Source: a virus. From it: a stretch of 21,941 nucleotides of DNA. Positions within the stretch are counted from its first letter, which is position 1; the number at the start of each line of letters is the position of its first letter. This document shows positions 151-21,941 of this stretch, piece by piece. Where the stretch lies: positions 1-21,941 of the IMG/VR virus record IMGVR_UViG_3300022413_000046. One strand, 5' to 3'. The position numbers were made by a program, and so were the translations under genes. Under the pieces are notes generated by a model. It had not been told where the DNA came from, did not search any database, and was given only the letters and a program-made list of their open reading frames with translations.

Positions 151-276
151 ATGCCCAAGCAGCACGCAGGTAACAAGCGCGAACCCATGGGCGGCAAGAC
201 CGATCGAATGCGCCCGAACAAGTCGCCAAACCCTATAGGCCCGTCTAGCGGCGTTCCTGCGCCGAAGAAGGGCTAA
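151..276 (+). CDS. Small basic protein of unknown function (41 aa)
   Basis: The frame starts at ATG 151, preceded by GGAGA at 138-142 with good spacing, and ends just four bases before the terminase start, which suggests coupled translation. The protein is short, rich in Lys, Arg, Pro and Gly (it begins MPKQHAGNKREPMGGKTDR) and predicted to be disordered, with no membrane segment. I recognise no family. Its place directly before the large terminase is where many phages keep the small terminase, but at 41 residues it is far too short for a usual small terminase with its helix-turn-helix and oligomerisation parts. It could be a DNA-binding accessory or a decoration peptide. The call as a gene rests on ribosome site, spacing and composition. 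Confidence 0.6.
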   Translation: MPKQHAGNKREPMGGKTDRMRPNKSPNPIGPSSGVPAPKKG

Positions 277-280
277 ACCA

Positions 281-1606
281 TTGCCAAGGGCTGCTATCAA
301 GCCGAAAGCCGCTCCTGCTCCAGTGTGGGAGCTTCACGATGGGCAGCAGGAAGTTTGGGATGCGTTCGAGCAACCAGATACGAGATTTGTTGTCGTTGCG
401 GCTGGTCGAAGGTGGGGAAAGACGCATTTTGCCGCTTGCTGGCTTATCTCTAATGTGCTGAAGACGAAAGCGGGCGGCAAGGTTCTGAATGACTTCGATG
501 TCTACTATGTGGCGCCCACGTTTAGCCAAGCGAAAGACATCATGTACAGGCTTGTCGAGCGACTGGGCGAGAACTACATCACGAAGGCATGGCCAAGCTC
601 CCTCACATTCGAGTTCTGCAACGGGCGAGTACTTCAGCTCAAGGGGGCCGATAGGCCCGATCGCTTGCGTGGCGTTGGCTTGTCTCATCTTTGCGCAGAC
701 GAGTACGCAAGTATGCGGGCTGAGGTGTGGACGTACGTCTTGAGAGCAACGCTCGCGGACCTGGCGCCAGAATCAAAGGCGTTGTTTATCGGCACGCCAG
801 ACAGGCGCAACCATTTTTATTCGCTTTTCCAAGCCGAGAAGAACGGTGCGAAAGGCTGGCGCTCGTTCAAGTACTTCACGAAAGATTCGCCGTTCATACT
901 TGATTCGGAAGTCGAAGACGCTCGAGCAACGATGCCTGAGGCCGTATTCAAGCGCGAATATGAGGCGGACTTTGGCGACGTTGCAACGGTCGTTCTCAAT
1001 CCTGACTTGATAAAGGTCGAGCCGAAGGCACATCTAAAACCGCGCGAGGCGCATACGGTCGTTGGTGTGCGGTTGCGAAGCTTTGACGAGCAAGGCCAGG
1101 ACGAGTGGGGGCAGATGGTCATTTCGATGTCATCGATCGCGGTTGTGCGGATCGTTGGCGACAAGTATCACGTGCTCGATTTCTTTCGAACGAATGACTC
1201 GGCGCGATGGCTGGCTACTAAGTTATTCGCGCTCGACCGTGAGTATGCGCCGGATACGTTTCTGATCGGCGCGCAGCAATACGCATCGATTGCCGACCAC
1301 ATCGAAGAGCGCGAGAGTCGCTTCAACCGTGGTTTGTACTTCGAGAGCATCAAGGACACGGACTCGGGTTATTCGGATCGGGCTACGTGGATCATTGAAC
1401 CATTGCTGGAGAGCGGGCGGATCACGTTTGAGCCTGGCGATTACGTGCAGGAAATGACGGCCCAATTCGGAATGTTTCCGACTGGCAAAGGATCTGACGA
1501 TATGGTGAGAGCGCTTGCGCTAGCGTGTGGCGTGAATTATGGCGAGGTTGGCGACGATGAGCCGCTCGAGGAATGGCAACCTATGGATAAGGCGGTGGGT
1601 TACTAG
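281..1606 (+). CDS. terL: Terminase large subunit (packaging ATPase)
   Basis: This is the motor that pumps DNA into the prohead through the portal. The 441-residue length fits the family. The ATPase domain shows Walker A AGRRWGKT (41-48), Walker B ending in LCADE (137-141) and a coupling motif GTP (171-173). A C-terminal RNase H-like nuclease region follows (about 255-420). Its usual acids look changed: the first Asp position reads VGVR (R264), the second acidic strand reads FLIGAQQ (327-333), and the last motif SDDMVRAL keeps D406/D407 but has Arg at 410 where Asp is common. The start is TTG at 281, chosen because an AAGAAGG lies nine bases upstream and no ATG exists before the ATPase domain. 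The upstream 41-residue gene ends at 276. The identity is sure; the nuclease state is inference. Confidence 0.95.
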   Translation: MPRAAIKPKAAPAPVWELHDGQQEVWDAFEQPDTRFVVVAAGRRWGKTHFAACWLISNVLKTKAGGKVLNDFDVYYVAPTFSQAKDIMYRLVERLGENYITKAWPSSLTFEFCNGRVLQLKGADRPDRLRGVGLSHLCADEYASMRAEVWTYVLRATLADLAPESKALFIGTPDRRNHFYSLFQAEKNGAKGWRSFKYFTKDSPFILDSEVEDARATMPEAVFKREYEADFGDVATVVLNPDLIKVEPKAHLKPREAHTVVGVRLRSFDEQGQDEWGQMVISMSSIAVVRIVGDKYHVLDFFRTNDSARWLATKLFALDREYAPDTFLIGAQQYASIADHIEERESRFNRGLYFESIKDTDSGYSDRATWIIEPLLESGRITFEPGDYVQEMTAQFGMFPTGKGSDDMVRALALACGVNYGEVGDDEPLEEWQPMDKAVGY

Positions 1607-1609
1607 TTA

Positions 1610-3370
1610 ATGAGTGACGTTCTAGCAGAAGACCTAATCGCCAAGGCGACAGATTGGCGTCGATTCCGCGATCAAGAACACGGCCAACGCTGGCGCGAAT
1701 ATTATCGCACTTGGCGCGGCGAGTGGACGACCGAAGAAAAGAACCGCGATAGTGAGCAGTCTAGGATCATCATGCCGAGCACGGCGCACGCTATCGACGC
1801 GGCCGTGTCCGAGGTGATCGAGGCGCTATTTTCAAAGGAGCAATGGCTTGACACGGGTAATCCGCTGCTTGACGATCTTTTACTGGCTGATTTATGGACC
1901 GATCGGCCGAATATCGAAGAAGCGGTATTGCTCGGCGCTCTTTATGGCAACGTCGTTTCGAAAATCGATGTTAGTTTCGATGGGAATACGCCGAAATTGA
2001 CGACCCAAGCGCTCGCCCCGACTGAATTAATCGTCGATCCGGCTGCAAACTCATTTAATGAGTCGATGGGCATCGTTCATCATATTTTCGTCCCGAAGCA
2101 TGTGGTTGAGCGCGGCATGGATGAGGGTAAATATCGATCGGTTAATCTCGACACGTCGCCGAATTTCGTTATTCGCAACGAAAATGAAGCGCAGCCGCGC
2201 GATTCTGACTACGTTGAAATCCATGAATGGTGGGGATTGATCCCCGTAAGCGAGGTCGAGTCGCGCCAGTCGAAAGACCAGCTCAGCGACGAAGCGATCG
2301 GCGAGGATAATCTAGTCGAAGCGGTTTGCACGATCGCCAACGAAGACGTTGTTTTACGCTGCGAGGCGAATCCTTTCGGCGCAGATCGGCCGTTCGTTTC
2401 TGCGCAATGGCATACGGTGCCGCGCCGGATATGGGGTAGAGGAATCGCCGAAATGGCGTACTGGCCACAAAAGGCGCTTGATGCGGAGATGCGCGCTCGA
2501 ATAGATGCGCTCGCGTTCTCGACGGTGCCTATGATGGCGGTTAGCACGCGCCAAGTCCCGCGCAGCGAGCGATTCTCGGCGCGGCCTGGGCGCAATATTC
2601 CAGTGCGAGGCGATGCGCGCACAGCATTGCAACCGATTTCTTTTGGCGGGCCAGATCCAGGCACCTATCAGCAATCAATAGAACTGCAACGGATGATAGA
2701 GGTAGCCACGGGTCAAATGACGGCAGCGTCACCGCTTGGCGACATGTCGCGTACTGGTAGCGGTCCGCTTTCGGCGGTTCTCGGCGCATCGGTGAAGCGC
2801 TCCGCTCGAACGCTCATGAACATCGAGCGAGATTACATCGTTCCGCTGATAGAAAAGGCAGCGAAGCGCCTCAATGCGCTAGACCCGAACCGCTACCCAG
2901 CGCTCGAGAGTCGACCGAAGATAAACAGCGGGATCGGCATCATGATCCGCGAGCTGGAGAACCAGCAGATGGCGCAATTGATGACGCAATTACCGAATGG
3001 CGCGGCGCAGCTTTCCATTTTGCGGCTCATCGTCGAGGGCTCGGCGATCCGCGAAAAGACAAACGTGCTTCAGATCGTGGATCAGCTCATCGAGCAATCG
3101 ATGGCGCCGGATCAAATGACGCCAGATCAAGAGCTGATCATGGCCCAGCTCCAGGAGCAACAAGCGGCACGTGAGCAGAGCGGCCGCGAGACGCTAGCAG
3201 GACTTCGCATCAAGCAAGAGGAGGCCGAAACCAATCGACTTGAAGCAACTCAACGACATCAACGCGAGCTACTTAATCTCGGGATCAAGGCTGACGAGGC
3301 CGAAGCAAAACGAGAGCAACAGCTAGCACTTAGGGAGTTCAACGAATCACAGAACGAAACGACACAGTAA
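1610..3370 (+). CDS. Portal protein (head-tail connector)
   Basis: A 586-residue protein encoded three bases after the terminase stop. Portal rings form the DNA gate of the capsid and dock the terminase. Position between terminase and scaffold, length, and general look (N-terminal DWRRFRDQEHGQRWREYYRTW, a middle region with GRGIAEMAYWPQKALDAEM and a long helical C-terminus rich in Gln, Glu and Ala from about 495) agree with podovirus portals of the P22-like style. The Gln/Glu-rich C-terminus is a predicted coiled coil or barrel helix. Start ATG 1610 follows the terminase TAG directly, so translation is probably coupled. The last 25 bases overlap the next gene in another frame. No single motif proves the role; the call rests on order, size and fold style. 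Confidence 0.88.
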   Translation: MSDVLAEDLIAKATDWRRFRDQEHGQRWREYYRTWRGEWTTEEKNRDSEQSRIIMPSTAHAIDAAVSEVIEALFSKEQWLDTGNPLLDDLLLADLWTDRPNIEEAVLLGALYGNVVSKIDVSFDGNTPKLTTQALAPTELIVDPAANSFNESMGIVHHIFVPKHVVERGMDEGKYRSVNLDTSPNFVIRNENEAQPRDSDYVEIHEWWGLIPVSEVESRQSKDQLSDEAIGEDNLVEAVCTIANEDVVLRCEANPFGADRPFVSAQWHTVPRRIWGRGIAEMAYWPQKALDAEMRARIDALAFSTVPMMAVSTRQVPRSERFSARPGRNIPVRGDARTALQPISFGGPDPGTYQQSIELQRMIEVATGQMTAASPLGDMSRTGSGPLSAVLGASVKRSARTLMNIERDYIVPLIEKAAKRLNALDPNRYPALESRPKINSGIGIMIRELENQQMAQLMTQLPNGAAQLSILRLIVEGSAIREKTNVLQIVDQLIEQSMAPDQMTPDQELIMAQLQEQQAAREQSGRETLAGLRIKQEEAETNRLEATQRHQRELLNLGIKADEAEAKREQQLALREFNESQNETTQ

Positions 3371-3597
3371 GAGCAGAAGCGCTTGAAAGGCTTCTCGATC
3401 TTGCTGATTTCAACGTCTATCTCGACGAGCTGCGCGAGGCTCGTGCCGAGATAATGGAAGATTTTCCGTTCAGCATCGATAGTGAGCGGGGATTATGGCG
3501 GGCGCAAGGTTTGATCGAAGCGTATGACTTCGCTATCGATCGAGCTGCCGCCGCCCGCGATTATCTGCAATCAGTAGAGGACTTTAGCGATGAATGA
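3346..3597 (+). CDS. Small acidic protein (83 aa) with apparent ATC start
   Basis: An open frame runs from after a TAG at 3331-3333 to TGA 3595-3597. It encodes a coherent, helical, acidic protein (interior DLADFNVYLDELREARAEI) like the small proteins that often sit between portal and scaffold genes in podophages. No ATG, GTG or TTG occurs before codon 37 (ATG 3454), which lacks a good ribosome site. An AGGGAG at 3332-3337 sits eight bases before ATC 3346, so I place the start there. It overlaps the portal 3' end by 25 bases and the scaffold start by 8. The alternative is a -1 frameshift out of the portal, but I see no slippery heptamer in the permitted interval after 3333. A 47-residue product from 3454 is also possible. 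The function is unknown. Confidence 0.65.
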   Translation: MTERNDTVRAEALERLLDLADFNVYLDELREARAEIMEDFPFSIDSERGLWRAQGLIEAYDFAIDRAAAARDYLQSVEDFSDE

Positions 3598-4297
3598 GTC
3601 GCAACGACTAGTTGACGCGACGCCGAATGAGGCGCCAGCAGACGAAAACAGAGGCAATCGTTTCGAGGGTCAAACCTTCGAAGGACGTGCGCCGCTCGAT
3701 GCGCAAGCGGAGACAGGACCGGATTTCGCGGCAGAGAATGAGAATCTAAAGCGAAAGCTTGGCCAGCAAGGCAATGAGATAGGAGAGCTGCGAAAGGCTC
3801 TAAGCGCGATCCAGGCGCAGCAACCAGCGCCTGAGCCGATCGACTATTTCGACAATCCAGCGGGCGCGATCGAGCAAAAGATCGATCCAGTAAAACACGA
3901 ACTCGACCAGATGCGCGGCGAGATGCTAAAGCAGCAATTGCGCGCGAAGCACGGCGACTTCGAACAAGTGGTAGCAACTCCAGAATTTGCGGAGTGGGTA
4001 CAGTCAAAGCGGCAACGCATGGCGGCGTACTCACAAGCGGATTCGGGCGACATTGAAGCGGCCGACGAATTGTTGTCCGACTTTAAATCGGAGCGTGGCG
4101 GCAATACGCCAACGAAAGCAAATGCGAAGCAAAAGGCATCGGCGGGCAGTGGCGAGCGTGGCTCATCTAAAGCCCCGCGCGGCAACGTCTATCGACGCAA
4201 AGAGCTTCAGAATATGTTGGCGTTTAATCCGCAACGTTATAACGAGCTGCTACCGGACATCAAACAAGCGTACAAAGACGGGCGCGTAGTTGACTAA
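3590..4297 (+). CDS. Capsid scaffolding protein
   Basis: A 235-residue, highly charged protein lying between portal and coat genes, the standard place for the scaffold that directs coat assembly and is then lost. It has a disordered acidic N-terminus, a coiled-coil stretch with NENLKRKLGQQGNEIGELRK (about 50-70), a helical centre and a Lys/Ser/Gly-rich linker (about 165-200). The basic C-terminal segment YRRKELQNMLAFNPQRYNEL is followed by IKQAYKDGRVV. That C-terminal pattern (basic helix, Asn-Pro-x-x-Tyr, then AYxxGRV) is typical of scaffold-like proteins next to podovirus coats. ATG 3590 overlaps the upstream small gene by eight bases. The call is based on context and composition, not on an enzyme motif. 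Confidence 0.8.
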   Translation: MNESQRLVDATPNEAPADENRGNRFEGQTFEGRAPLDAQAETGPDFAAENENLKRKLGQQGNEIGELRKALSAIQAQQPAPEPIDYFDNPAGAIEQKIDPVKHELDQMRGEMLKQQLRAKHGDFEQVVATPEFAEWVQSKRQRMAAYSQADSGDIEAADELLSDFKSERGGNTPTKANAKQKASAGSGERGSSKAPRGNVYRRKELQNMLAFNPQRYNELLPDIKQAYKDGRVVD

Positions 4298-4334
4298 GGG
4301 CGAAACATCTCGGCTCTTGGTCGAGGTTAATTAA

Positions 4335-6420: not shown

Positions 6421-6705
6421 GTGAGCAGATTATCAGGATTTTATGCAGAGACGACATGGAACCCCAGTTCGATTTTAGATGGGGCGCAGACCAATCTGGC
6501 GGTTACTGTTCAAGGCGCGAGAGTTGGCGATTTTGTCATGGCGAGTCTGGAGGTTTCGCAGCTTGGGACGGTAATCTCGGGATATGTGGGATCGGATGAT
6601 ACGGTGACAGTGATTTTGCAGAATCTTAGCGGAGTGACCCGAGACCTTGGGAACGGGACACTGAGAGTTGCGGTTGTTCCAAAAGCAATCATGATGATGT
6701 CATGA
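6421..6705 (+). CDS. Small beta-rich virion protein, possible decoration or fibre part
   Basis: A 94-residue protein from GTG 6421, with a TAGGAG-like site about nine bases before. The pattern GAQTNLAVTVQGARVGDFVM, then a strand pair ending in SGYVGSDDTVTVILQNLSG and DLGNGTLRVAVV, is a compact beta sandwich or prism seen repeatedly in phage proteins near head and tail genes, where it occurs as capsid decoration or fibre head domains. There is no signal peptide or membrane segment. Its stop overlaps the start of the spike gene (ATGA type), so the two are probably made together. It may sit on the capsid or form an adaptor for the spike. The family resemblance is from memory of the pattern; the role is inference. 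Confidence 0.55.
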   Translation: MSRLSGFYAETTWNPSSILDGAQTNLAVTVQGARVGDFVMASLEVSQLGTVISGYVGSDDTVTVILQNLSGVTRDLGNGTLRVAVVPKAIMMMS

Positions 6706-15484: not shown

Positions 15485-15717
15485 TGCAAAACTGTAGATT
15501 CCGACATATCGGCCAGGTGCTCTATGGCCGCGAATGGGCTTCGCAGCTAGCCGAAGATTTCGGCGTCGAACCGACTACGATTAGAAATTGGGCTAAAGGC
15601 GAAACTCAGCTACCAACCACAGCGCCGATCGTATTGCTGGCAGCAGCTCGGCGCAGACTAGAACAAATCAAAGCGGCGATTGAACTCGCCAAGAAGGAAG
15701 AATTGAACCATGGCTAA
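15484..15717 (+). CDS. Helix-turn-helix DNA-binding protein
   Basis: A 77-residue protein whose centre reads as a compact helix-turn-helix: ASQLAEDFGVEPTTIRNWAK (about 19-38), with the DFGV turn and TTIRNW recognition helix typical of Cro/XRE- and excisionase-like regulators. It is followed by a C-terminal helix (LLAAARRRLEQIKAAIELAKKE) that may dimerise. It starts in a TAATG overlap with gene 15272 and overlaps the next gene by eight bases. The perfect dyad at 15230-15248, in the leader of this same operon, is a natural candidate target, which would give feedback control. This is inference; the fold call is fairly safe. Confidence 0.75.
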   Translation: MQNCRFRHIGQVLYGREWASQLAEDFGVEPTTIRNWAKGETQLPTTAPIVLLAAARRRLEQIKAAIELAKKEELNHG

Positions 15718-16144
15718 GGCAAGTGCAAAACCGATGAAGCTCCGCAGCGGCGAATGGGGAATTCGCGTAGTCGGACACGAAGAAGAGCTACAACGCGGCT
15801 CGGTCGTCAAGATATACACACGTGAAAGCGACTATCTAGCCATCATCCGAAACCTAGTCTTTTCAGGGCACGACCGTCACGAAGACGCAACCGTGTCGCT
15901 CTACGGAGTCAATCGCGTACCAGACGACCGCATCTGCCAAATATGCGGAACCAAGATGGAAATTGACGACAAAGAGATTTTCGACTTCGGCCGACCAGTT
16001 TGGCGTGAAGGTAACAACGAAGGTACACAAGAAAACCGATCCAACGTTCGAAGCGGATTCAAGAAGCGTAGACCGGAATCGAACGGCAATGGCGAAGCGC
16101 TACTGCCACAGAAATCAGATCCCGATGACGAGATACCGTTTTAA
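15710..16144 (+). CDS. SSB-like protein with zinc motif and DDEIPF tip
   Basis: A 144-residue protein from ATG 15710 with AAGGAAGA upstream. The N-terminal 70 residues are a beta-rich domain (RSGEWGIRV, RGSVVKIYTRES, LAIIRNLVFSG) resembling a small barrel. CQICG (76-80) looks like half a zinc site. A basic disordered linker (about 100-130) then leads to the C-terminus SDPDDEIPF. That acidic tip ending in Ile-Pro-Phe is the hallmark of bacterial single-strand DNA-binding proteins, where it docks helicases and repair enzymes. The helicase gene follows in a TAATG overlap, which supports a role in replication. The barrel is not an obvious standard OB fold. I am fairly sure of the tip and less sure of the domain. 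Confidence 0.6.
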   Translation: MAKASAKPMKLRSGEWGIRVVGHEEELQRGSVVKIYTRESDYLAIIRNLVFSGHDRHEDATVSLYGVNRVPDDRICQICGTKMEIDDKEIFDFGRPVWREGNNEGTQENRSNVRSGFKKRRPESNGNGEALLPQKSDPDDEIPF

Positions 16145-17175
16145 TGCGAAATCCTATCGTCAATAGATTGCGGGACATTGAACCGCGCGACGTCGACTGG
16201 CTTTGGCACGAGAAAATTCCACGAGGACGTATCAGCTTGATCGCTGGAGATCCAGGTATCGGGAAAAGTTGGTTGTCTTTAGACATTGCATCTCGAGTCA
16301 GTACGGGCACTGATTGGCCAGACGGTCAGGAAGGCAAACAAGGGAACGTCATTTTAATCAATTGCGAAGATGATTTCGGAGATACCGTACGGCCTAGGCT
16401 GGAAAGGCTTGGCGCAGACCTGGACCGAGTCTTCGAGCTTCAAGGATGGGCTCAAGATGAAGAAGAATTCGTACATCAAATCACGCTTGAAGATATCGAC
16501 ATATTGGAGAGCGTTATAGAGGAATACAAACCAAGCCTGATCATCCTAGACCCTATATCAGCATATTTCGGCGAACAAACCGACAACTATCGAGATACCA
16601 GCGTTAGGCGAGCGCTAAGACCTATCGCAGAGATGATCATGGAAAAGAATGTCGCTTTTCTCATCATTGCTCATCTGAACAAGAGCAGCGACCAAGCAGG
16701 GCTTTATCGAGTATCAGGCTCGATCCAGTTTAGCGGAGCAGCAAGGACAAGCTATCTGGTCGCTTTCGATCCAACGGATCCGGATAGACGATTGATGCTT
16801 TGCATCAAAAATAACTTAGGACCTGCTCGATTTGGGTTCGCCTACAAGGTCGACCCGGACAACGAAGAGAACCCGGTCGAATGGGATAGCGAGCCACTGC
16901 ATGAAGAAGATCTAGACATGCTTTCGGCGTCCACGAATCGACTCGATGAAGAAATCCGCGAACTTATGCTATGGCTAGAAGCAACCTCAAAGGAACAAGG
17001 CGGCGTTCTGATCCCTAGCGACATGCGAAAGGATAGCCAAGGTGGCGGGTACTCCTGGAATACGGTTCAAAAAGCACGACGCATAGCCGGGTTTCGAGCG
17101 GTCAAGGTTGGCGAAGGCTGGCAATGGATAGCCCCAGACACTCCGGATGCTGGCAAAGGATGGAAAGAAGAATGA
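16144..17175 (+). CDS. RepA-like hexameric replicative helicase / AAA ATPase
   Basis: A 343-residue RecA-fold ATPase. Walker A is GDPGIGKS (35-42), the catalytic Glu lies in NCEDD (73-77), Walker B is LIILD (132-136), and the sensor-like IIAHLNK (174-180) matches the His motif of RepA/DnaB-type helicases. The region SGSIQFSGAARTSYLVAF (191-208), with Arg201, is also typical. The C-terminus (about 265-335) looks like a winged helix (WNTVQKARRIAGF, VGEGWQWIAP), as in RepA-like primase-helicase accessory proteins. It would unwind DNA at the fork or help start replication, and is encoded between the SSB-like and RuvC-like genes. No primase domain or polymerase is seen, so host enzymes are presumably used. 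Confidence 0.88.
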   Translation: MRNPIVNRLRDIEPRDVDWLWHEKIPRGRISLIAGDPGIGKSWLSLDIASRVSTGTDWPDGQEGKQGNVILINCEDDFGDTVRPRLERLGADLDRVFELQGWAQDEEEFVHQITLEDIDILESVIEEYKPSLIILDPISAYFGEQTDNYRDTSVRRALRPIAEMIMEKNVAFLIIAHLNKSSDQAGLYRVSGSIQFSGAARTSYLVAFDPTDPDRRLMLCIKNNLGPARFGFAYKVDPDNEENPVEWDSEPLHEEDLDMLSASTNRLDEEIRELMLWLEATSKEQGGVLIPSDMRKDSQGGGYSWNTVQKARRIAGFRAVKVGEGWQWIAPDTPDAGKGWKEE

Positions 17176-17669
17176 AGCTCGTAATCGGTATTGATCCAGG
17201 CTTAATAGGCGCGTTCACAATATGGAGCATGGAACACAACAACATCGTTATTGCAGCTAACTTCAAGATAGAAACTAAACCTTACGGCAAAGGAAACCAA
17301 ATTGATGCGAGATATTTTTCTAATTCTATCAACTACTTAGCAAAGCCAGGAAACGAAGTGAGTGCTTACATCGAAAGGGTTTCAGCAATGCCAGGACAAG
17401 GCGTTACCTCGATGTTCGGATTCGGTCGAAGCGTAGGGGTTATCGAAGGGGTGATCATGGCCTTTGGATGGCCTATCGCTTACCCAACACCGAACGAATG
17501 GAAGAAACACCACTCGATCCAAGGTAAAGACAAAGCAGCTAGTTTATCGATGTTCGGCGCAATGGAGCCGAGCTATAGCCTGGAACATTTGAGCAAAGAG
17601 AAACGGATAGGAATTGCAGATAGTTATTTAATCGCTCGATACGGAGCTTGGAGGATCAAAAATGCTTAG
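17172..17669 (+). CDS. RuvC-like Holliday junction resolvase
   Basis: A 165-residue protein starting at ATG 17172 inside the helicase stop (ATGA); a longer start 16 codons earlier is less likely. Motifs of the RuvC nuclease fold are IGIDPGLIGAFT (D8), AYIERVSAMPG (E68), the helix FGFGRSVGVIEGV (82-94) and the C-terminal GIADSYLIARYG (147-158, with D150). Phage members of this family cut branched DNA before or during packaging. Its position after SSB and helicase fits recombination-linked replication. If the terminase nuclease is weak, this enzyme could also help prepare DNA for packaging, but that is speculation. It overlaps the next gene by eight bases. Confidence 0.85.
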   Translation: MKLVIGIDPGLIGAFTIWSMEHNNIVIAANFKIETKPYGKGNQIDARYFSNSINYLAKPGNEVSAYIERVSAMPGQGVTSMFGFGRSVGVIEGVIMAFGWPIAYPTPNEWKKHHSIQGKDKAASLSMFGAMEPSYSLEHLSKEKRIGIADSYLIARYGAWRIKNA

Positions 17670-19205: not shown

Positions 19206-19381
19206 ATGAACGTGACGAATGGATAGCAGAAAGAGCGGCCATCATCTGGGAAGGCTCCAGCTTCCCTCTAGACGACAATCGATGGGGGTATGGGGTAACC
19301 ATAACCAAAGCTCGAAAAATGGCTGAGAATGAATATGAGGCGTTACAAAAATGGAAAGCAAAACAGGAACCGAACACCTAG
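19202..19381 (+). CDS. Hypothetical small protein (59 aa)
   Basis: The frame starts at ATG 19202 within the previous stop. The protein is MNERDEWIAERAAIIWEGSS, then DDNRWGYGVTITKARKMAEN and a Lys-rich end. It is helical with Trp-rich patches and no cysteines. It resembles the short WxxERAxxxW-type phage proteins of unknown role. It overlaps the following zinc-finger gene by 31 bases. The function is unknown. Confidence 0.6.
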   Translation: MNERDEWIAERAAIIWEGSSFPLDDNRWGYGVTITKARKMAENEYEALQKWKAKQEPNT

Positions 19382-19575
19382 ATCGAAGACGTTGCTCCGG
19401 ATGTGGAGCGTATGTATCAAAAGATCGCTTTGCTAGCTCAAAATGGCCTGGGAATGTCTGGCCCCTGTGCAAAAGATGCGAGCCGTTGCCCTTTCGTTAT
19501 CACATCGAAGACGAACGAAAGCGTCCGAAAAGAAACCCATTGAAAGTCGACTTGTCTGGAGATTTAGAGCCATGA
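19351..19575 (+). CDS. Small zinc-finger-like protein (74 aa)
   Basis: A basic protein with paired cysteines RRRCSGCGAY (CSGC 15-18) and LCKRCEP (CKRC 40-43), the spacing of a treble-clef or HNH-type zinc site, but the His-Asn-His catalytic core of an HNH nuclease is not present. The rest is Arg/Lys/Pro rich (ERKRPKRNPLK). It is probably a nucleic acid or protein binder. It overlaps the upstream gene by 31 bases and the next one by an ATGA junction. Confidence 0.6.
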   Translation: MESKTGTEHLDRRRCSGCGAYVSKDRFASSKWPGNVWPLCKRCEPLPFRYHIEDERKRPKRNPLKVDLSGDLEP

Positions 19576-20648: not shown

Positions 20649-21195
20649 ACAATGGTCCTATAACGATGAACGGCATATCACGGTGCGAACGCCATACAAC
20701 CCCACGATAACACTCCGCTAGCTCAATAGCACGCCAAACCCAACGTCCAGTATAGAGAAACGGCGGAGTAACCTGGCTCACGCTGAAGCTGTAATCGCCT
20801 GGGCGAACGTACGTAGCATCAAGCGCAGGAACCTTCTCGATTCGCTCAAAGTCGCCCTGAACCCGAATAAAATGACGCAAGTACGTCACTTTCTGACACT
20901 CTCGCCTTATCTCGCCTTCGAAGTGAGCAACAAGCGTATCGCCTGGTCTTATCGCTGGATCCTTCGTGCCCTTCAAGTCCGTAACGTATGGATCCACCGT
21001 ATAACGGAATATAGGCGAATCTGAGACGATTTGCGGCTCGAACAATAGGTAGGCAATGGTTACTACCAAAACGGCGCTTAGAATCGATTTGAGGCTGAAA
21101 ACGGACCGCTTTATACCCCTGGGTTGCTTTAGCTCGCGATGCTCGACTTCAACCACTGCCAAATTGCGATTCCTGTGCCTACGACGACGATCCAT
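20635..21195 (-). CDS. Single-pass membrane protein of unknown function (186 aa)
   Basis: The protein starts with an Arg-rich cytoplasmic segment (MDRRRRHRNRNL), then a transmembrane helix (about 33-52, including SILSAVLVVTIAYLLF), then a larger outer domain (about 53-186). The outer domain holds the beta-rich pattern RPGDTLVAHFEGEIRRECQK and later GDYSFSVSQVTPPF, and two Cys (about 109 and 168) that could form a disulfide in the periplasm. The basic N-terminus predicts N-in topology. It starts 67 bases inside the other leftward gene. Its role might be in envelope modification, exclusion of other phages or lysis control; I do not recognise the family. Confidence 0.65.
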   Translation of the reverse strand: MDRRRRHRNRNLAVVEVEHRELKQPRGIKRSVFSLKSILSAVLVVTIAYLLFEPQIVSDSPIFRYTVDPYVTDLKGTKDPAIRPGDTLVAHFEGEIRRECQKVTYLRHFIRVQGDFERIEKVPALDATYVRPGDYSFSVSQVTPPFLYTGRWVWRAIELAECYRGVVWRSHRDMPFIVIGPLSNVE

Positions 21196-21359
21196 ACGAG
21201 ATGACCTAACGTTGATTCGGTAATCCTTGCCATCATAGCCTTTCGCTTAGACGCGCTAGACATCTCCATCTTGGCCCATTCAAGAACCTCACGATGCTGA
21301 TCTATCAGCTCGCGGATCTCTATCGCCTCTGCCTTAGTCATCAGCTCGTTATCTTCCAT
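21129..21359 (-). CDS. Small coiled-coil membrane protein (76 aa)
   Basis: A 76-residue protein with a charged helical N-terminal part (MEDNELMTKAEAIEIRELID and further to about residue 45) and one C-terminal transmembrane segment (about 52-71, HLVWIVVVGTGIAIWQWL). Proteins of this shape (helix plus tail span) are common in phage genomes and could be holin, antiholin or inner-membrane spanin-like factors. GAGG lies ten bases before the ATG. It is the first gene of the leftward pair and its first 22 codons are copied in inverted orientation at the left edge of the window. Confidence 0.7.
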   Translation of the reverse strand: MEDNELMTKAEAIEIRELIDQHREVLEWAKMEMSSASKRKAMMARITESTLGHLVWIVVVGTGIAIWQWLKSSIAS

Positions 21360-21391
21360 GGAGTTCGCACCTCACCAGCATACCTCATCCA
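21293..21391. repeat. Mate of the inverted repeat at 1-99
   Basis: An exact reverse complement of bases 1-99. It covers the leader, ribosome site and first 22 codons of the leftward gene at 21129-21359. The match may continue beyond 21391 if sequence existed left of base 1. Confidence 0.95.
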
Positions 21392-21402
21392 GGATAGCAA
21401 AG

Positions 21403-21432
21403 GGTATAGCCGTTAGGTCGAATCAGTTACAA
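21403..21432 (-). promoter_or_regulatory. Candidate leftward promoter
   Basis: Read on the minus strand, TTGTAA (-35, 21432-21427), an 18-base spacer and TATACC (-10, 21408-21403) give a 4/6 plus 4/6 match to sigma-70 sites, about 45 bases before the ATG at 21359. It would drive the two leftward membrane genes. It is weak and unproven; a phage sigma factor could use other signals. Confidence 0.35.
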
Positions 21433-21443
21433 ATCGTTACAAA
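21426..21443. repeat. Tandem octamer GTTACAAA, candidate operator
   Basis: GTTACAAA tc GTTACAAA places two identical octamers ten bases apart, one helical turn, overlapping the -35 of the candidate leftward promoter. Two half sites on one face of the helix would suit a regulator binding in tandem. Confidence 0.5.
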
Positions 21444-21522
21444 ATTAACCGCTTTACATGGTGGGTTCGAATGTGATACCCTCTAGTCTACGTCTCGTCT
21501 CTCTCCTACTCCTGCCAGCTAA

Positions 21523-21613
21523 GGCGAAACCGTTCAACTATAATTGAGAATCGCCAGGTTCTCCACCAAGAGGTTCTGGTGACTCGGAAAGTATCGACCC
21601 ATTAGGTTTCGCC
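21523..21613. ncRNA. Candidate structured RNA or cis element closed by a 9-bp stem
   Basis: GGCGAAACC (21523-21531) pairs perfectly with GGTTTCGCC (21605-21613). Inside lie TCAA/TTGA (21534-21547), GAGAA/TTCTC (21546-21550 with 21559-21563), CACCA/TGGTG (21564-21568 with 21577-21581) and the competing pair CCAG/CTGG with CTC/GAG (21554-21579). AGGTTCT occurs twice, 15 bases apart. The fold looks like a multibranched RNA or a cruciform-prone control site. The strand and transcription are unknown. No known RNA family is recognised. Confidence 0.45.
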
Positions 21614-21662
21614 GTTCCAGCCCGTTAGGGTCTCAGCGAGACGAACAACCTCTCCCATAGGT

Positions 21663-21681
21663 GGCGGTCCCGCCCGGTTTT
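21663..21681 (+). terminator. Weak terminator-like hairpin
   Basis: GGCG (21663-21666), a four-base loop and CGCC (21671-21674) are followed after CGG by TTTT (21678-21681). The stem is short and the T run small, so this is a tentative end point for a transcript of the structured element upstream. Confidence 0.3.
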
Positions 21682-21763
21682 GCTCCCGACACCGTATAGT
21701 CGAGCGCACCGAATTAAGGACTAGATGCCCCTGTCCATGGGAGGCCCAAGCATCGTCTCGTCG

Positions 21764-21788
21764 AAAATTGCAACGTTACGACAATTTT
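21764..21788. repeat. AT-rich 7-bp inverted repeat
   Basis: AAAATTG (21764-21770) and CAATTTT (21782-21788) form a perfect inverted repeat around an 11-base centre containing AACGTT. It lies directly beside the palindrome at 21789-21800 and may be part of the same protein-binding or melting site. Confidence 0.5.
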
Positions 21789-21800
21789 TGTATCGATACA
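21789..21800. promoter_or_regulatory. 12-bp palindrome TGTATCGATACA in a cluster of TATCGA sites
   Basis: TGTATCGATACA is a perfect 12-bp palindrome. Related sites follow: ATCGATAC (21851-21858), TATCG...CGATA (about 21862-21879) and GTATCGAATCGAC (21910-21922). The cluster is about 135 bases long at the window end and could be iterons or operators for a phage initiator or regulator. Confidence 0.5.
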
Positions 21801-21941
21801 GTACCGTAATTGTCTTCATGGAATGCAAAGGCTTTTAGAACACGTATAGAATCGATACCTCTATCGTAAGGACTCGATAAGATAGGGGGACTAAGCCATA
21901 CTCAATACCGTATCGAATCGACACAATACAGGATGCGAACC

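Follow-up and report, generated by a model that had tools for sequence, protein, structure and literature searches.

Introduction

All phage large terminases (TerLs) have been described as conserving the catalytic acids of their nuclease domain (PMC9958956), and the phi29-like phages are described as the sole ones with a non-cutting domain, the other tailed phages being reported to cut with it (PMC7672431). The nuclease of the phi29 motor ATPase gp16 is vestigial, which has been explained by the unit-length genome of this phage (PMC7672431). Nuclease mutants of T4 keep their ATPase and package pre-cut linear DNA, while circles are not packaged (PMC9958956). In the TerL of Thermus phage G20c cutting requires every one of the metal ligands D294, D347 and D429; the strand-1 Asp is expected to coordinate both metals, a D-to-N change at this position gives the lowest activity, and D429 comes directly after H427-D428 (PMC5389553).

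Here we describe a TerL gene on the virus contig IMGVR_UViG_3300022413_000046 of IMG/VR (positions 1-21,941). The whole stretch of 21,941 bases is referred to as the window.

Results

A large terminase with an intact ATPase

The gene set of the window reads as that of a small podovirus. It comprises a 41-aa ORF, TerL, portal, a gene intervening between portal and capsid, major capsid and tail genes, and further a protein with an SSB-like tail, an AAA_25 ATPase, a RuvC-like resolvase, a DNA methyltransferase, an M15 endolysin and a sigma-like factor. A small ORF at 19357-19575, which overlaps the end of the preceding gene, carries a CxxC...CxxC zinc-ribbon pattern. The terminase region contains:

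151-276, plus strand: basic 41-aa ORF, conserved, immediately 5' of TerL at the position where a small terminase often sits
281-1606, plus strand: TerL, 441 aa, with an ATPase and an RNase H-like nuclease fold without the nuclease acids (Pfam, PHROG, full-length relatives, AlphaFold2)
401-424, plus strand: Walker A AGRRWGKT (residues 41-48), intact in the family alignment
698-703, plus strand: Walker B Asp and catalytic Glu (D140-E141), intact and invariant in alignments A1-A3

TerL matched Pfam Terminase_6N (3.4e-10) and a PHROG terminase family (8.9e-33). The packaging ATPase domain is present with Walker A, Walker B and the catalytic Glu, in agreement with the original prediction, read from the letters of the DNA alone, that the ATPase motifs are intact. 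The 41-aa ORF had no match in family scans or in databases. It shares 56% identity with its counterpart on a related contig, G001, and a reading frame resembling it, a third copy, was spotted by eye at the left end of another, G002; it could be a small terminase stand-in.

Relatives of the window TerL

A single-protein TerL scan of viral contigs gave no match, and an alignment query was needed to recover relatives. The alignment-based scan of IMG/VR then revealed full-length TerLs on G001 (L011, 77% identity) and G002 (L051, 52% identity), which were the only close relatives found, and many at 31-37% identity. The window TerL, L011 and L051 form a clade with 100/99 support. Two capsid-based scans and one portal-based scan yielded no fourth member, and scans of GTDB genome contigs with TerL and portal alignments yielded no relative. 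TerLs located beside related capsid genes all keep the acids. Isolated phages provided only distant TerL matches, most of them spanning the ATPase alone.

G001 is colinear with the window. At 1520-4302 of its TerL locus two genes, encoding a 101-aa protein and an 824-aa BNR-repeat protein, are inserted between TerL and portal, the former resembling window 6421-6705. On G002 the replication module (AAA_25 ATPase, RuvC-like protein and SSB-tail protein; locus L136, 4068-8450, minus strand) is inverted relative to the window and G001.

Replacement of catalytic acids in the nuclease domain

Residues were compared column by column in a 147-row family alignment of TerL. A MAFFT alignment that took in highly divergent phage TerLs misplaced phiFa motif III and was left out of the column claims. 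The positions concerned are:

1070-1072, plus strand: R264, replacing the catalytic Asp that ends strand 1 (T4 D401, G20c D294; alignment and hhalign)
1268-1270, plus strand: G330, replacing the catalytic acid that ends strand 4 (T4 E458, G20c D347; alignment)
1496-1501, plus strand: D406-D407, kept acids, of which D407 corresponds to T4 D542 and G20c D429 (alignment; PMC5389553)
1508-1510, plus strand: R410, replacing the family-invariant Asp of HDDxxDA (alignment)

The window TerL reads VVGVRLRSF around R264 and FLIGAQQYAS around G330. Of 145 rows, 142 have Asp in column 264; the only sequences with Arg are the window, L011 and L051. Glu occupies column 330 in 131 rows, where the window has G, L011 has S and L051 has N. 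In column 410 Asp is found in 135 rows and Arg in the same three sequences only. About 140 other relatives retain the acids. Profile alignment by hhalign of the three clade TerLs with 34 acid-keeping relatives (Prob 100, E 3.9e-89) confirmed columns 264 and 330, with D247 and E314 of the relative L139 facing R264 and G330, respectively. A HMMER alignment to T4 gp17 matched E458 to column 330 and D542 to D407, the second D of (H)DD. The positions of T4 D401, E458 and D542 are thus taken by R264, G330 and D407.

The nuclease had been proposed to lack its usual catalytic acids. This was borne out for motifs I (R264) and II (G330); motif III retains its catalytic D407. The Arg in SDDMVRAL had been read as the lost catalytic Asp, which proved mistaken, since alignment with T4 D542 and G20c D429 identifies the second D of SDD as the metal-binding Asp. 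The Asp lost at 410 is family-invariant, yet has no metal-binding role known from T4 or G20c. The loss therefore comprises two of the three canonical acids and one additional family-invariant acid. That three independent contigs, with TerLs as far apart as 52% identity, share the changes rules out a sequencing error or chance. The window protein is thus a TerL by descent and motor, and probably not an active terminase nuclease.

Predicted fold and selection

We next consider the structure predicted for the domain:

983-1540, plus strand: nuclease-fold domain, residues 235-420 (VIA-align Z 16.9, rmsd 2.9 A to the G20c TerL nuclease 5m1f)

The AlphaFold2 model of the window TerL (pLDDT 87.8) contains a complete C-terminal RNase H-like domain of TerL topology, with Z-scores of 13.7-16.9 to the G20c, RB49, Sf6 and SPP1 nucleases; its fold matches further included E217 and herpesvirus terminase nucleases. 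In the model R264 ends strand 1 (258-264), G330 ends strand 4 (326-330) and D407 opens the last helix (407-416). A control model of L139 has D247, E314 and D392 at the positions of R264, G330 and D407. A search of the window model for acids that could form an alternative two-metal site found D269/E270 past the end of strand 1, in a low-confidence loop, and D325 ahead of strand 4, at the end opposite to the active site; D407 is the first residue of the last helix, as in L139.

Between the window and G001, synonymous differences in the nuclease domain are saturated (pS 0.94), while pN is 0.18. From these values the domain is under strong purifying selection, which argues for a maintained non-cutting domain and against decay or error. 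A decaying pseudogene was rejected on the open frame and the low pN against saturated pS.

An inverted repeat at the contig ends

The two ends of the window share an inverted sequence:

1-99, unstranded: inner 99 nt of the left copy of an inferred inverted terminal repeat; reverse-complementary to 21293-21391 without mismatch
21293-21941, unstranded: inferred terminal inverted repeat, right copy, at least 649 nt (repeat search)

A gene is complete at 21129-21359, and its truncated start sits in the left repeat copy. The outer approximately 580 nt of the right copy contain no ORF above 42 aa. De Bruijn assemblers such as metaSPAdes and MEGAHIT leave end sequences of maxK length at repeats, a maxK of 99 being one in use (PMC10914622), which may not be that of this contig. 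The simplest reading of the sequence is that a terminal inverted repeat, 649 nt or longer, collapsed in the assembly graph, with the right side fully assembled and the left side cut to its inner 99 nt; in principle the window might also stem from a larger genome in which the inverted repeat lies internally. The window, G001 (21.2 kb) and G002 (24.3 kb) all begin 80-150 nt 5' of the 41-aa gene. No inverted overlap was detected at the ends of the G001 and G002 contigs, the repeat being known from the window alone.

A 24-mer from the outer repeat had no match in viral contigs, and scans of the ends for sigma-70 promoters and terminators gave results no better than shuffles. Motifs that recur in degenerate form (CGTATAGAATCGATAC-like, GTATCGATAC) were observed close to the outer end of the repeat, at 21776-21941; they are possible protein-binding sites.

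Replication genes and a RuvC-like resolvase

Downstream of the structural genes the window encodes:

15710-16144, plus strand: protein with the SSB-like acidic tail DDEIPF, conserved in 3/3 phages, no match in family scans
16144-17175, plus strand: AAA_25/RepA-like ATPase, replication helicase candidate (Pfam AAA_25, 7e-35)
17124-17669, plus strand: RuvC-like Holliday junction resolvase, candidate end-processing enzyme (phrog_1770, 4.3e-23; alignment)

The D, E and D acids of the RuvC-like protein are kept in all three phages. RuvC-like resolvases are widespread in phages, including epsilon15 and Caulobacter phages. An intact resolvase would allow end formation by such an enzyme without showing it, and the protein is a candidate only. 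No HNH or other nuclease was recognised among the window proteins scanned. Neither a protein-primed PolB nor a terminal protein nor a protelomerase was recognised in the scanned window ORFs; a terminal protein could escape detection, and the outermost bases may be absent from the contig.

Discussion

Comparison with described terminases

The closest solved folds are those of the TerL of Thermus phages P74-26/G20c (ATPase 4znl, Z 26.1; nuclease 5m1f, Z 16.9). The equivalents of D428-D429 are kept in the window TerL, whereas those of D294 and D347 are lost. With gp17 of T4 and RB49 it shares the two-domain organization, a profile match that spans the two domains (3ezk, E 2.1e-17) and the equivalent of D542, but it has R264 and G330 in place of D401 and E458. 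TerLs of environmental podoviruses (L139, L141 and L057 among others) are 34-36% identical over their full length, and many of these loci carry homologous portal, tail and capsid genes. These TerLs, in contrast, all keep D, E and HDDxxD, and several are found on larger contigs (about 36 kb).

The likeness to phi29 gp16 consists in a motor ATPase, an RNase H-like C-terminal domain without catalytic acids, a unit-length genome (presumed for the window) and a small podovirus (PMC7672431). However, gp16 has lost fold elements and has no sequence homology to other TerL nucleases, whereas the window TerL keeps both, and the sequence relatives listed for it are ordinary TerLs. A PolB or terminal protein as in phi29 was not recognised in the window, and an Rfam scan of the window for pRNA gave no match. 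Our verdict is that the window TerL is functionally like gp16 in having a nuclease domain without catalytic acids, but probably not a member of the gp16 family found in Salasmaviridae and their relatives.

A probable non-cutting motor for a linear genome

We consider it rather probable that this TerL is a nuclease-dead but folded and selected motor that packs a fixed, unit-length linear genome with inverted terminal repeats and makes no cut of its own. The sequences show the acid loss, the intact ATPase, the selection and the clade, and the model predicts the fold. The motor would thread a pre-formed linear genome, initiation and termination cuts by TerL would be unnecessary, and the nuclease domain would now serve only in gripping or positioning DNA or in docking to the portal. 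By analogy with the T4 nuclease mutants and phi29 gp16, packing of unit-length linear DNA is most likely what the window motor does. The loss of the acids alike in three related viruses suggests that their genomes are packed with ready-made ends, and the inverted repeat together with the common starts of the 21-24 kb contigs points to a linear unit-length genome packed without cutting. Within the ordinary (T4/P74-26-like) TerL family, a state like that of phi29 gp16 would then have evolved independently. We infer the absence of activity, the unit-length packaging and the independence from phi29. Weighing against the account, the evidence comprises three sequences, with the inverted repeat in the window only, and no PolB or protelomerase that could replicate inverted-repeat ends was recognised.

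Alternative explanations

Tailed phages mostly replicate as concatemers, and a nuclease-dead TerL may depend on cutting of these concatemers in trans by a phage or host nuclease, e.g. the RuvC-like resolvase or an undetected small nuclease. We hold this to be unlikely: the RuvC-like protein has all three acids in the three phages and shares the fold class of the nuclease, but nothing links it to packaging, phages commonly carry such resolvases, the proteins scanned yielded no other recognised nuclease, and the inverted repeat points to unit-length ends. The original prediction, that DNA cutting must come from another enzyme, perhaps the RuvC-like protein, overreaches in this respect; the inverted repeat suggests that these phages may do without cutting altogether.

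The same enzyme figures differently in a poxvirus-like scheme. The resolvase A22 of vaccinia belongs to the RuvC family, and a resolvase has been proposed to turn concatemers into hairpin-ended genomes (PMC9415595). Correspondingly, a lineage of ordinary tailed phages might independently have given up terminase cutting and replicate through inverted or hairpin ends into inverted junctions, the RuvC-like enzyme resolving the extruded repeats into hairpin-ended unit genomes for the non-cutting motor to pack. The inverted repeat at the contig ends, the intact RuvC-like acids, the lack of a recognised PolB and the non-cutting TerL would all fit. We nevertheless judge the scheme improbable, as hairpin ends are without support, the repeat is documented in one contig, and resolvase genes commonly occur in phages with ordinary terminases.

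It is more doubtful still that the domain itself continues to cut, via D406/D407 with non-canonical ligands (Q332/Q333, D269/E270 or others) or with a single metal. D406 and D407 are kept and could bind one metal, and all members of the clade share Q333, Y334 and an acid at 269. However, the strand-1 Asp expected to bind both metals is Arg here, where D-to-N alone gives the lowest activity (PMC5389553), and strand 4 and the stretch just after it are without an acid.

A sequencing error or decaying pseudogene, for which no support was found, has a negligible probability in view of the same substitutions in three independent contigs, the open frame and the low pN.

Implications

Under the account that we prefer, of a non-cutting motor packing a unit-length genome, selection has preserved a fully folded but acid-less nuclease in a canonical TerL, which would add to phi29 a second non-cutting case of independent origin. 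Cutting could then be told apart from the roles of the domain in the motor and in portal docking, and there would probably be a lineage of tailed phages that makes its genome ends differently.
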